Shown one piece after another: positions 2-5,375 of a stretch of DNA of 7,729 nucleotides; positions within the stretch are counted from its first letter, which is position 1, and every line of letters begins with the position of its first letter. The stretch covers positions 1 through 7,729 of the forward strand of contig SFPH01000110.1 of NCBI GenBank assembly GCA_004552115.1. Reading direction: 5' to 3'. The stretch comes from Bacteroidales bacterium. GTDB taxonomy: Bacteria > Bacteroidota > Bacteroidia > Bacteroidales > UBA932. A model generated the notes under the pieces. It ran no database searches and was not told the DNA's origin. It worked only from the letters and a program-made list of their open reading frames with translations. A program made the translations under genes and the position numbers.

Positions 2-94
2 CAATGGATCGGCATCATCCTTGCCACTTTAGGCGTAGGCCTGTCCCAGCTCAATGCGCGTGCAGGCTTATTCAAATGCAAGAGGAAGTCCTGA
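2..94 (+). CDS. 3' end of a DMT/EamA-like transporter gene (partial)
   Basis: An open frame enters from the left edge and ends at a TGA at 92-94, leaving about 30 codons. The visible peptide begins with a hydrophobic stretch (QWIGIILATLGVGLSQ) followed by a short basic tail ending CKRKS. A last membrane helix of the form W-I-G-x-x-L-x-x-x-G-V-x-L-S-Q is what I would expect at the C-terminus of 10-helix drug/metabolite (EamA) transporters. Its last 27 bases overlap, tail to tail, the end of the minus-strand dihydroorotase gene. Only the last helix can be seen, so the substrate is unknown and the family call is tentative; the frame could also be another membrane protein. No terminator hairpin is visible between the converging genes. 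Confidence 0.5.
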   Translation, partial: QWIGIILATLGVGLSQLNARAGLFKCKRKS

Positions 95-1492
95 CGGATT
101 TTCTGAAATCAGTCTTCCTTTCCCGACGACCTTCTTTCCTCCCAGATAGACGTCCTCTGTCATTCCCTTAAGCCTGATTCCTTCATAGGGACTCCATCCG
201 CATCTGTACCCTATGCCAGCATTGCCGGCTTCATTTTCCCCGACTGTAAATTCCAGATCCGGGTTGACCACAATCAGGTCGGCAACGGCACCGACCTCTA
301 TTCTGCCCCTGTCTTTCATTCCGAAGAGTGAGGCAGGTTTTGCGGATACCGCATCTGCAATCCGGCTCAGCGGAATGTTTTCCTCCTCCGCCACAGTGAG
401 CAGCACGGACAATGCCTGCCTTATGGAAGGGACGCCGGAAGGACAGGTGGTGTAAGGCCTGGCCTTCTCCTCCGGAAGATGGGGAGCGTGGTCGGAGCCG
501 ATGCTGTCAATGATGCCCTCCTTCAATGCCTTGCGCAATGCTGCCCGGTCCGAGGCCTTCTTCACGGACGGGTTGCATTTAAGCCGGCTTCCCAGGCGGT
601 CGTAGTCCTCGTCGCAGAACCAGAGATAGTTGGCCGAAGTCTCGGCGCTGATGAGCGGATTGTGAATCTTCGCCGCCCTTATCATCTCCACCTCCTCGGC
701 AGTAGTGACATGGGTTATATGCAGTGCGGTGCCGCATTCAATCGCCATTTCCAATGCCTTCGCAGTGCTCTTTATGCAGGCCTTCCTGCTGCGTATATTC
801 TCGTGCTCCCTCATCGGGATATCCTTCCCGTAGCGCTCCTCCGCCTTCTGGAGGTTCTCCCTGATCGTGGCCTCGTCCTCGCAATGTACAAGAATGCGGA
901 CACCCTTCAGAGAGAACAGCTCCCGCAGCGTCATATCCCTGTCAACCAGCATGTTGCCTGTTGAGGAACCCATGAATACCTTGACTCCGCAGAACTCCCT
1001 CCCGGGCTTCAGCATCCCCCTGATTTCTTCGAGATTGTCATTCGTGGCTCCGATATGGAAGCCGTAATTGCAATATGACCTGCCGCGTGCAAGATCAAGT
1101 TTCTCCCTCAGCCTTTCCCCGGAAGTCGTTGCCGGATTGGTGTTGGGCATATCGATGAAGGAGGTGATGCCGCCGAGAAGAGCAGCCCTTGACTCCGATT
1201 CAATGTCGGCTTTGGCGGTCATCCCCGGTTCGCGGAAATGGACGTGCGGGTCAATGCAGCCCGACATCAGAAGCCTGCCCTCGAGATTCTCTGCAGCAGC
1301 TTCGGGATACTCCTCCCTGAGGATATCATTGAGCCGTTCCAGAGGCATTTCCACATTGCCGTATGTGACCAGTCCTTTGTCATTGACCTTCCAGACTCCG
1401 CCGATCCGGCCGTCGGAAATGAGAAGCGTCCCCCGTGCGGTCCCGGAGACCGTTACGATGGACGCATTCATTAGAATTGTATTTCTGCCCAT
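68..1492 (-). CDS. pyrC: Dihydroorotase (amidohydrolase family)
   Basis: This cytoplasmic zinc enzyme of de novo pyrimidine synthesis interconverts N-carbamoyl-aspartate and dihydroorotate. The 474-residue product has the amidohydrolase TIM-barrel signature in order: DPHVHFREPG at 81-90 (metal ligands H83 and H85, substrate Arg87), DMPNTNP at 114-120, GVKVFMG at 169-175 (K171 is a candidate carboxylated bridging lysine), HCED at 203-206, THVTTAEE at 260-267, and GSDHAPH at 332-338 (catalytic/metal D334). The order and wording of the motifs favour dihydroorotase over allantoinase or hydantoinase. It is somewhat longer than the usual ~430-450 residues, with extra acidic sequence at about 32-70 before the first metal motif. 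The ATG lies 1 base after the stop of the upstream frame (TGATATG), so it is almost certainly co-transcribed and probably translationally coupled. There is no promoter of its own. Met8 is an alternative start, but the first Met gives the expected N-terminal strand. Confidence 0.93.
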   Translation of the reverse strand: MGRNTILMNASIVTVSGTARGTLLISDGRIGGVWKVNDKGLVTYGNVEMPLERLNDILREEYPEAAAENLEGRLLMSGCIDPHVHFREPGMTAKADIESESRAALLGGITSFIDMPNTNPATTSGERLREKLDLARGRSYCNYGFHIGATNDNLEEIRGMLKPGREFCGVKVFMGSSTGNMLVDRDMTLRELFSLKGVRILVHCEDEATIRENLQKAEERYGKDIPMREHENIRSRKACIKSTAKALEMAIECGTALHITHVTTAEEVEMIRAAKIHNPLISAETSANYLWFCDEDYDRLGSRLKCNPSVKKASDRAALRKALKEGIIDSIGSDHAPHLPEEKARPYTTCPSGVPSIRQALSVLLTVAEEENIPLSRIADAVSAKPASLFGMKDRGRIEVGAVADLIVVNPDLEFTVGENEAGNAGIGYRCGWSPYEGIRLKGMTEDVYLGGKKVVGKGRLISENPSGLPLAFE

Positions 1493-1493
1493 A

Positions 1494-2189
1494 TCAGGAT
1501 TTCTTGTTTATTTTCCGGAACCTGAGCTTGATCACTCCCCAGAATGCCTCTCCGAATATGCTCCCGCTCATTTTGGACGAGCCGGCCTTCCTGTTGACGA
1601 AGATTACCGGCACCTCCCTGATTGGGAAGCCGAGCTTCCAGGCGGTGTACTTCATCTCGATCTGGAATCCGTAGCCCTTCATCTCCACCTTGTCCAGGTC
1701 TATGGCTTCCAGAACCCTGCGGCTGTAGCACTTGTAGCCTGCAGTGCAGTCGAAGACCTTCATCCGGAGGACTGTCCTGACATAGACCGAGGCGTAGTAG
1801 GACATTATGATTCTGCCGATCGGCCAGTTCACCACGCTGATTCCGTCGCTGTATCTCGAACCGATTGCGACGCCTTCACCTTCCTTGCAGGCCTCCAGAA
1901 GCCTTGGAAGGTCGTCAGGATCGTGGGAGAAGTCGGCATCCATCTCGAAGATGTAGTCGTATCCGTGGCCCAGGGCCCATTTGAAACCGGTAATGTATGC
2001 GGTTCCAAGTCCGAGTTTCCCGGCCCGTTCAATGAGATTGAGCCTGTCCGGAAATTCCTTCTGCAGAGATTTGACAATGGCGGCCGTCCCGTCAGGGGAG
2101 CCGTCGTCGATGATGAGTATCTCGTATCCTCCATCGAGGGAGAACACCTTGCGGATTATCCTTTCGATGTTCTCCTTCTCGTTGTAGGT
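1494..2189 (-). other. Glycosyltransferase family 2 (polyprenol-phosphate mannose synthase-like) portion of the fusion, 5' end missing
   Basis: Residues 1063-1293 of the fused frame match the DPM1/polyprenol-monophosphomannose synthase type, which transfers a sugar from a nucleotide sugar to a lipid phosphate on the cytoplasmic face. Visible are TYNEKENI (1063-1070), DDGSPDG (1090-1096, nucleotide binding), the metal-binding DAD at 1146-1148 followed by FSHDP, GSRY, the CTAGYKCYSRR acceptor-side segment, and the late RKAGSSKMSG motif. There are no C-terminal membrane helices, as in the short soluble-type enzymes. A normal member starts with a beta strand of the form VIIP directly before TYNE. 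Here that strand and the start codon are replaced by protease sequence (QLEAAV), and there is no in-frame ATG, GTG or TTG near the joint. The first in-frame ATG is Met1145, beyond the nucleotide-binding motif. As read, it is a 5'-truncated gene. It sits directly before pyrC, an arrangement I associate with Bacteroidales genomes. Confidence 0.85.
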
Positions 2190-5100
2190 GACGGCGGCCT
2201 CAAGCTGCCTGTCCTCGCCCCTGAGTACTGATGCAGGGTCATTGTAAACGAGGATGTCGGGCTCGATCTGGTGGTTCTCGCTGTAATGCCCCTCGTCAAT
2301 GCACCAGGAACCTACCTGAGGTATTCCGAAGACGATGCTGGAGTTGATCTGGTATTCCCACCATACGGCCGTCATTGTGCCGGCCACCGGAGCTCCGATG
2401 AGTTTGCCGATTCCGAGAGCCTTGTAGGCGTAAGGGAAGCCGCAGGCGTCAGAGTAGTTGTCCTCGCAGACGAGTACGCAGGACGGCTTGCTCCATTTGC
2501 TGTATGGGTCCTTGCCGATGAACCTGCCGCGCGGCTGGTAGTTGACATAGTCCTTTCCGCCGAGGAAGGTTACGAGATCGTCGTGAAGCCATCCGCCGCC
2601 GTTGTGCCTGGTGTCAACTATGAGGGCGTCCGCTGTCCTGTATTTTCCGAGAGCCTTGGAATATACCTCCCTGAAGCTTGGGGAATCCATTCCCTGAACG
2701 TGAACATATCCGATTTTTCCTCCTGAAAGCTCCTCGACCTTTGCCTCGCGCATCTTGACCCAGCGTCTGTAGAGGAGGGCATTGTCAGAGTATCCCGGAG
2801 TAACGAAGAGTTCGGTCTCCTTCTTTCCGCCTTTCTTCACGGTTATGGCAATCTTCTTGCCCGCCTTGCCGGTAAGAAGCTGGTACCAGTCCTTTCCGGC
2901 CTCGATCTTCTTGCCTTCTATGGAGGTGATGATGTCTCCGGCCTTGATTTCGGAGTCTGCGATGGAGAGGGCTCCGTCCGGGAGAACTTCCTTGATTTTC
3001 AGTCCGTCTCCATCATATTCGCTGTCATAGAGTACTCCGAGTGTTCCGAAGCTCAGACCGCTTGAATATCTGTATCTTCCTCCGGTGTGGGAGGCATTGA
3101 GCTCGCCGAGTATCTCGGAGAGGAGTTCCGCGAAGTCGAAGTCATTGTTGATATATGGCAGGAACTTGCGGTAGTTCTCCCTGTAGTAGTCCCAGTCGAC
3201 TCCGTGAAGGTCAGGGTCGTAGAATTTTTCCTTCACCTGTTTCCACATGTGGTCGAAGATATATTCGCGCTCGGCCTTCGGCTTGTATTCATATTCGCCG
3301 GCATAGCTGATGCTCTTGCTTTCTCCGCCATTGACACTCATCTTGGAAATGCCGCCTCCGGTGCTGATGTAGATGTTTTTCCCGTCCGGGGAAGGCACGA
3401 AGCCGTACACTCCCTTCTTGAGCACCCTTACACTCTTGTCCTCCAGATCCATCGAGCAGAGATCATATCCGCTCTCCAATCTTACTATGTAGAGGAGTTT
3501 CTTGCCGTCCTCTGTAAGGAAATGGGTCCCTATTCTGCCGGAATTCATGGTCAGGCGGAAGATCCTGTCTTCCCTGCCTTCAAGGTCGAGCTTGATTTTC
3601 TCAACCTTCTTCACACTGTCTTTCTTCTCATCCTTCTTGTCGTCTTTCTTCTCGTCGCCGGCAAGCATCTTGGCAATCTCGGTGCCTTCCTTGTCCCTGA
3701 AGAACTCTGTCATTGCCTTGGCATCGAAGAACATGATGTATATGTCTCCCTCTGCTCCCCAGCTTCCGTGGCTGCGGTAACCGTCCTTGTCTGATTCCCA
3801 GGTCATCGCCTTGCCGCCCAGTGCCCAGCGGAAACTTCCGTCGTTGTAACCGCTCCTGGTCAAGTCGGTGATTTCGCCGCTTTCAATGTCTATCACGGCC
3901 ACGTCCTCATTGTTCCATCCGCCGTCGGCCTGATATGATGAGAGAAGATAATGGCTGTCAGGACTCCAGCTGAACGAGAGGTCGCCGTCGGAATACGAGT
4001 AGTTCACGTCCTTGAGAAGCGACTTGGCCTTTCCGCCCTTCGTCGGCTTGATGACCAGCTCTGTCCTGTCCCTCAGATAAGCCACATATTTTCCGTCCGG
4101 GGATACGACAGGCTGGAAGCAGGTCTCGCCCTCGTCGGAGAAGAGCTCTTCCTTGAACTCCGTGGCGTAGGTGAAGTACTTGTCGTCCTTGTTTGACAAT
4201 GATGTCCTCCATATTCCCCAATGTCCGTCACGTTCTGCGGAATAGTACAATGTCCTTCCGTCTTCGGAGAAGCTGAGATCCCTTTCCTGGGAGGCCGTGT
4301 TGGTGATGCGCTTCGTGGTCCTGTAGTCGGCTGAAGTCACGAAGACGTCGCCCCTGAGAATAAGGGCAATTTCCTTCTGGCTCTTTGGAATGGCAATGTC
4401 GGTGGCGCCGCCGCTGTAAGTGGCTCTCTCGATATCCCTCTCGTCCTGGTCGGAATATACCGCAATCTCCACTTTCACAGGCTCCCTGCCCTCTGTCAAT
4501 GTATAGAGGTCTCCGTTGTAGGAGAATGCCAGTGTGCCGTTCTTCGCTACTGAAAGATAGCGTACAGGGTTCTGGGTATAATGAGTGAGCTGGACTGACT
4601 TGTCCGGTGCTGAGAGCGAGCTCCTGTAGATGTTCATTGCCTTTCCGTCCCTCTCGCTGAGATAGTAGAACGTGTCCCCGTCCGCAGCGAAGACCGGATT
4701 CCTGTCCTCTCCCTTGAAGTCGGAGAGCTTGGTGAATGTGCCGTTTCCGTCAATGCTTAGGCTGCTTGCGCCCTTGTAGAGCCAGATGTCTTTGGTCACG
4801 GCTGAGGTGTGGTGCTTCCTGAGCGGGTCCTCATAGCCCTTGTAGTCCTCATATATTATGGCGCCATTGTCCGATATGCTGATAGCGTCGATAGGAAGCG
4901 AAGTAATCCTGACCGGTCTGGCTCCATTCAGATCTGTATAGTAGAGCTGGACTCCGCCGGGGAAGCCGTCATATCTCACGTCCTGCTCCACGGCTGCGGA
5001 GAATATGATTTTTCCATCAGGGAGAACTGCCATCGGAACCTCGTTGCCCGGGTGGAATGTGAGCCTTTTCGGAGTGCCGCCTTCGCAGGATGTCACGAAA

Positions 5101-5375
5101 ATATCCCTGCTCTTTTCCCTGTATGAGCTGAATACAATGTTCTTTCCGTCCGCTGTCCAAAGTGGATTCGAGTCATATGCCGCATTGGTGGTGAGCTGCA
5201 ATGCCCTTCCTCCAGATACCGGGACCACGAATATGTCCCCCTTGTAGCTGAATGCTATTCTGCTCCCGTCGGGGGAGATGCTGTTTTTCCTTAGCCAGCC
5301 CGGGGTTTCCTGTCCGAACGCTGTTCCTGCCGCAGCTATGGTTGCGATGAGGATTGAAAAGAGTGTCTTTTTCAT
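1494..5375 (-). CDS. Exported tricorn-type S41 protease fused in frame to a DPM1-like glycosyltransferase
   Basis: This 1293-residue frame contains two unrelated proteins. Residues 1-21 form a signal peptide (MKK, then a hydrophobic core, probable cleavage after AFG). Residues ~25-700 carry WD40/PD40-like beta-propeller repeats (repeated SPDG-K/S-x-I motifs), interrupted at ~573-595 by a Lys/Asp-rich linker. A helical domain leads to NASH at 760-763, then a PDZ domain at ~778-865, then the S41 core. The catalytic set matches archaeal tricorn in kind and spacing: S762/H763, glycine-rich oxyanion loop G926-G928, nucleophile S975 with D976, and E1033 (58 residues after the Ser, as in tricorn). 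The protease would degrade peptides in the periplasm. At ~1062/1063 the sequence switches abruptly to a GT2 glycosyltransferase. Both halves lack sequence at the joint, so this is likely a gene-gene deletion fusion or an assembly artefact. The protease half may still work, because all its catalytic residues precede the joint. Confidence 0.9.
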   Translation of the reverse strand: MKKTLFSILIATIAAAGTAFGQETPGWLRKNSISPDGSRIAFSYKGDIFVVPVSGGRALQLTTNAAYDSNPLWTADGKNIVFSSYREKSRDIFVTSCEGGTPKRLTFHPGNEVPMAVLPDGKIIFSAAVEQDVRYDGFPGGVQLYYTDLNGARPVRITSLPIDAISISDNGAIIYEDYKGYEDPLRKHHTSAVTKDIWLYKGASSLSIDGNGTFTKLSDFKGEDRNPVFAADGDTFYYLSERDGKAMNIYRSSLSAPDKSVQLTHYTQNPVRYLSVAKNGTLAFSYNGDLYTLTEGREPVKVEIAVYSDQDERDIERATYSGGATDIAIPKSQKEIALILRGDVFVTSADYRTTKRITNTASQERDLSFSEDGRTLYYSAERDGHWGIWRTSLSNKDDKYFTYATEFKEELFSDEGETCFQPVVSPDGKYVAYLRDRTELVIKPTKGGKAKSLLKDVNYSYSDGDLSFSWSPDSHYLLSSYQADGGWNNEDVAVIDIESGEITDLTRSGYNDGSFRWALGGKAMTWESDKDGYRSHGSWGAEGDIYIMFFDAKAMTEFFRDKEGTEIAKMLAGDEKKDDKKDEKKDSVKKVEKIKLDLEGREDRIFRLTMNSGRIGTHFLTEDGKKLLYIVRLESGYDLCSMDLEDKSVRVLKKGVYGFVPSPDGKNIYISTGGGISKMSVNGGESKSISYAGEYEYKPKAEREYIFDHMWKQVKEKFYDPDLHGVDWDYYRENYRKFLPYINNDFDFAELLSEILGELNASHTGGRYRYSSGLSFGTLGVLYDSEYDGDGLKIKEVLPDGALSIADSEIKAGDIITSIEGKKIEAGKDWYQLLTGKAGKKIAITVKKGGKKETELFVTPGYSDNALLYRRWVKMREAKVEELSGGKIGYVHVQGMDSPSFREVYSKALGKYRTADALIVDTRHNGGGWLHDDLVTFLGGKDYVNYQPRGRFIGKDPYSKWSKPSCVLVCEDNYSDACGFPYAYKALGIGKLIGAPVAGTMTAVWWEYQINSSIVFGIPQVGSWCIDEGHYSENHQIEPDILVYNDPASVLRGEDRQLEAAVTYNEKENIERIIRKVFSLDGGYEILIIDDGSPDGTAAIVKSLQKEFPDRLNLIERAGKLGLGTAYITGFKWALGHGYDYIFEMDADFSHDPDDLPRLLEACKEGEGVAIGSRYSDGISVVNWPIGRIIMSYYASVYVRTVLRMKVFDCTAGYKCYSRRVLEAIDLDKVEMKGYGFQIEMKYTAWKLGFPIREVPVIFVNRKAGSSKMSGSIFGEAFWGVIKLRFRKINKKS
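2181..2201 (-). other. Protease/glycosyltransferase junction
   Basis: On the minus strand the codons read E-A-A-V then T-Y-N. EAAV is the usual last helix of a tricorn protease (GEDRQLEAAV), and TYNE is the post-strand loop of a GT2 enzyme. The switch lies at about 2187-2192 (V1062/T1063). Tricorn normally continues about 20 residues beyond this point: after the catalytic Glu there are 29 residues here, against about 48 in the archaeal enzyme. The glycosyltransferase normally has about 8-12 residues before TYNE. No stop, start, repeat or insertion sequence marks the joint. Confidence 0.75.

Follow-up and report, generated by a model that had tools for sequence, protein, structure and literature searches.

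A 68-bp deletion probably fused a tricorn-type protease gene in frame to a GT2 glycosyltransferase gene in a Bacteroidales genome

A 1293-amino-acid open reading frame in a Bacteroidales contig joins a tricorn-type S41 protease to a DPMS-like glycosyltransferase of family GT2. The window, the whole stretch of DNA that was analysed, is 7,729 nucleotides long. We consider it probable that one lineage of Candidatus Cryptobacteroides-like Bacteroidales recently lost 68 bp, that this deletion fused two closely spaced same-strand genes in frame and that the GT2 enzyme was lost as a result. At the level of sequence comparison, the deletion is supported by the separate genes of the nearest genome compared (hereafter G001), by the clean 68-bp gap relative to that genome, and by the stop codon that lies between the two genes in 52/52 genus neighbours and 16/16 named genomes.

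The fused frame occupies positions 1494..5375 of the minus strand and carries Pfam domains of both halves. Its tricorn-type part (2190..5375, minus strand, residues 1-1062) begins with a signal-peptide-like N-terminus and lacks the last nine codons and the stop of the gene. Its GT2 part (1494..2189, minus strand, residues 1063-1293 plus the stop) lacks the first ten codons, including the ATG. The open reading frame listing shows the frame open across the joint at 2190|2189, whose placement is ambiguous by 1 bp (2189..2190, minus strand). EAAV immediately precedes TYNE, the T of which is residue 1063, and the uninterrupted, linker-free passage described in the initial annotation is thus present. 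Pfam assigns PD40 repeats, Tricorn_C1 (699-757), PDZ and Peptidase_S41 (887-1043) to the first half, and Glycos_transf_2 (1062-1224) to the second, where the match covers profile positions 5-166 of 168 and so lacks the profile start. Downstream lies an amidohydrolase gene (68..1492, minus strand), dihydroorotase-like in our reading, whose ATG is one base past the GT2 stop, as in G001. The other-strand neighbours of the fused frame are an ABC ATPase, a protein with no Pfam match and a GntR regulator.

G001, in which 25% of the 31-letter words sampled from the window recur, carries the same neighbours as two separate adjacent genes in different reading frames. Protein identity between the fused product and G001 is 98% over residues 1-1063 (tricorn) and 93% over residues 1050-1293 (GT2). 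Other GT2-like matches in G001 reach no more than 27-33% identity. The G001 tricorn protein ends in EAAVREMLAETTK-stop, followed by 8 nucleotides and then by the GT2 start, MSDRKIVIIPTYNE. Relative to this arrangement the window lacks exactly 68 bp: the final nine codons of tricorn with their stop, the intergenic gap and the initial ten codons of GT2. The missing piece holds the stop of the first gene and the start codon of the second and, because the G001 genes are in different frames, its loss brings them into one. In the alignment this gap is the sole indel across 1494-5375. A single in-frame deletion of a gene end, an intergenic gap and the next gene start, as originally proposed, therefore fits G001 base for base. 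The accompanying estimate of about ten residues missing from the GT2 start was correct (ten), and that of about 20 from the tricorn end was too high (nine). The amidohydrolase gene differs from its G001 counterpart by several small indels summing to 6 nucleotides and is still open (474 versus 472 amino acids). Adjoining the joint, window positions 2230-2699 are identical to G001 over 470 nucleotides, while the whole tricorn part differs at 137 places; this identical stretch is possibly a recent recombination tract.

The breakpoint ends have 1 bp in common, so the suggested inspection for microhomology proved uninformative. The two breakpoints are not linked by any exact repeat of at least 7 bp, which makes an assembler misjoin on a shared word unlikely. 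The hexamer GACAGG is present twice, exactly 68 bp apart and 24 nucleotides before each breakpoint. We rejected deletion between these direct repeats: the 27-nucleotide tracts agree at 11/27 positions, a level that 6% of the offsets tried (802 of 13320) also reach, and agreement in the final 12 nucleotides before the joint is only 1/12. Within window positions 2190-2213 (minus strand), the tricorn tail DRQLEAAVT and the deleted GT2 beginning DRKIVIIPT line up in register, and the DR common to both is encoded by GACAGG; this register is likely due to chance. A viral origin of the joint was also dismissed, as none of the 7 viral contigs carrying an 18-mer from it encodes a tricorn- or GT2-like piece (tblastn, E 1e-3).

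Gene order was then compared among relatives, which judging by their names are Candidatus Cryptobacteroides and other Bacteroidales, several of them from gut or rumen. In a survey of 151 genomes of the genus, at least 132 have a strong GT2 place, and the upstream side of 132 loci was read. A tricorn gene lies directly upstream in 52, none is present in the stretch examined in 63, and the contig ends within less than 700 nucleotides in 17. A stop codon separates the two genes in every one of the 52 pairs. The gap, determined for 49 of these, ranges from -20 to 197 nucleotides (median 5), small enough for small deletions to be able to fuse the genes. Among named genomes, a tricorn gene is upstream in 16 of the best 80 of 591 loci, again with a stop between the genes in all 16; some of these are probably the same genomes as in the genus survey. 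At some GT2 matches in the genus, open frames appeared to extend for about 1300 codons. These were considered as recurrent fusions and discarded, since they read through stops that the sequences place between the genes.

Searches for the joint itself gave consistent results. The exact 27-mer spanning it is absent from the genome contig collection, which may omit records very close to the window, and a degenerate joint pattern occurs in 0/299 genomes of the family. In two protein searches, no match among the best 120 of 4836 or the best 120 of 711 has both S41 and GT2 domains or spans the joint; coverage of the joint region in the second search does not exceed 61%. The protein database is clustered at 90%, so a fused member could be concealed in a cluster represented by an unfused protein, for instance that of P0043 (447 members). 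A conserved tricorn-GT2 architecture was accordingly found in none of the 52 genus neighbours and none of the 16 named genomes, an outcome that sides with a recent deletion over the widespread fused architecture that the initial annotation had named as its contrary. To our knowledge, based on a limited full-text literature search, no fusion of tricorn and glycosyltransferase genes has been reported. Because the relatives examined keep the genes apart, the fusion looks recent, one-off and probably damaging, or else a sequencing artefact.

The first half matches solved tricorn 1k32 in sequence (4.5e-38), and its Tricorn_C1, PDZ and S41 domains behind propeller repeats identify it as a tricorn-type S41 protease. 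The His of NASHTGG, the Ser of DNYSDACG and the Glu of SENHQIEPD align with the matching residues of 1k32, which we take to be catalytic in tricorn. The N-terminus, MKKTLFSILIATIAAAGTAFGQ, resembles a Sec signal peptide as judged by eye and by hydropathy, and no later 19-residue stretch of the fused protein has a mean hydropathy above 1.6. The dN/dS of this half against G001 is 0.060. Two related tricorn proteins, P0044 and P0045, share about 54-67% identity with the window protein in the first 400 residues and 93-100% from residue 601. From their sequences they look like mosaics of two alleles, produced either by recombination inside tricorn or by chimeric metagenome assembly.

The best sequence match of the second half is Pyrococcus furiosus DPMS (5mlz; 2.1e-30, compared with 3.8e-33 for the intact G001 GT2). 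A GT2 domain is present, and the TYNE, DDGSPDGT and DADFSHDP motifs are retained. Relative to G001, the start codon and the native first strand (VIIP) have been deleted. Of the residues lost, I9 and P10 show no variation in 38/38 aligned relatives, chosen from 195. In the DPMS structure, whose catalytic domain is cytoplasmic, Tyr10 of the beta1-alpha1 loop contacts the ribose of the donor, and the acceptor loop is locked by Glu12 (PMC5526996). The GT2 dN/dS against G001 is 0.036 (0.159 for the amidohydrolase), with 8 amino-acid differences in 231 codons, and at each of these 8 sites the window's residue is shared by 3 or more of 119 relatives. By these sequence measures the GT2 part has no visible decay, which would fit retained function or an artefact as well as it fits a very recent event. 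Translation restart inside the GT2 part was considered and rejected, since 24 GT2 residues would be lost by starting at the first in-frame GTG and 92 by starting at the first ATG.

AlphaFold models of the fused tail (250 amino acids) and of the intact G001 GT2 (241 amino acids) have mean pLDDT values of 84.6 and 87.8. The strand leading into TYNE is QLEAAVT in the fused tail (model residues 14-20) and KIVIIPT in G001 (5-11), and the best fold match of the fused-tail model is DPMS 5mlz (TMq 0.78). The model suggests that the tricorn tail may replace the missing first strand, making a folded fusion possible. The alignment supplied to AlphaFold held 38 intact GT2 rows and no fused row besides the query, and such an alignment pulls towards the normal fold; the model thus shows a fold that the fusion could adopt, without showing that it does so.

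Other GT2 relatives, P0001 and P0003-P0007, run C-terminally into a hydrophobic, signal-peptide-like stretch and then into another protein, which in P0001 is of GH9 type. Their identity to this GT2 is 67-70%. By domain order these form a separate group of GT2 fusions in which the GT2 part leads.

If the deletion is present in the genome itself, the chimera would be translated from the tricorn start and exported by way of the tricorn signal peptide. Protease function is predicted to be retained, since only nine C-terminal residues are gone. The GT2 part, left without its own start codon and exported behind that signal peptide, is predicted to be lost from the cytoplasm and would end up in the periplasm, where the nucleotide-sugar donor is absent. 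Separation from the donor would in turn abolish polyprenol-phosphate glycosyl transfer. The kept frame would let ribosomes still reach the GT2 stop and, with that stop and the amidohydrolase ATG still one base apart as in G001, translational coupling is probably kept.

Evidence against a deletion with loss of the GT2 consists of its single occurrence, the lack of GT2 decay and the intact GT2 fold predicted by AlphaFold, which speaks against breakage at the first strand. The first two observations would also be expected if the joint had arisen from chimerism in a library molecule, an error in a read or assembly at low coverage, in an organism whose two genes are normal. The mosaic appearance of P0044 and P0045 likewise hints that chimeric assemblies may occur in the group. 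We regard such an artefact as unlikely, though it deserves serious attention. The 1 bp common to the breakpoints and the 6-bp repeat before them are too little for an assembler join, no further indel relative to G001 is found in the frame, and a random join at the 68-bp scale would keep the frame only one time in three.

A further alternative is a working fusion enzyme, in which the tricorn tail provides the missing first strand and both activities are retained. The placement of QLEAAVT where intact GT2 has KIVIIPT at similar pLDDT, the match to 5mlz, and the conserved GT2 part with its intact motifs all favour this explanation, as does the activity of the Rv2051c PPM synthase behind another protein (PMC3460810). 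It nonetheless appears very improbable, because the alignment biases the model to a normal fold, none of the relatives read has the fusion, and the tricorn half has the look of an exported protein with nothing resembling a membrane segment after its N-terminus, in contrast to the cytoplasmic catalytic domain of DPMS (PMC5526996). A newborn two-domain protein, in which the exported protease tail gives the GT2 its first strand in register, both halves fold and the transferase is periplasmic, seems about as improbable. A recent deletion that cost the lineage its GT2 remains our preferred explanation. If reads confirm the joint, the locus would record cleanly, before any decay, how a single small deletion can fuse closely spaced genes, in a strain that would have to tolerate the loss of a GT2 gene present in at least 132/151 genomes of the genus. 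Should the joint instead prove artefactual, the case would illustrate why a fusion observed a single time has to be backed by reads.

Compared with known systems, the tricorn-GT2 fusion looks ordinary in kind and mildly unusual in its partners, rather than a new kind of enzyme. The C1, PDZ and S41 regions of tricorn protease (PDB 1k32, 1n6d) align over residues 705-1053 of the window protein, preceded by PD40 propeller repeats; unlike those structures, the window protein has a signal-peptide-like N-terminus and its C-terminus is replaced by a GT2 enzyme. The GT2 part has P. furiosus DPMS 5mlz as its best match in both sequence and fold and retains the TYNE and DAD motifs, but it has no first strand, start codon or transmembrane domain and sits behind an exported protease. 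A parallel in architecture is Rv2051c, an active protein in which Lnt is joined to PPM synthase and whose two parts are encoded in relatives by neighbouring but separate genes (PMC3460810). As in the window, a PPM-synthase-type enzyme is C-terminal there; in Rv2051c the partner is the acyltransferase Lnt and the fusion is active, whereas the window pairs a protease with a GT2 enzyme whose start has been deleted.
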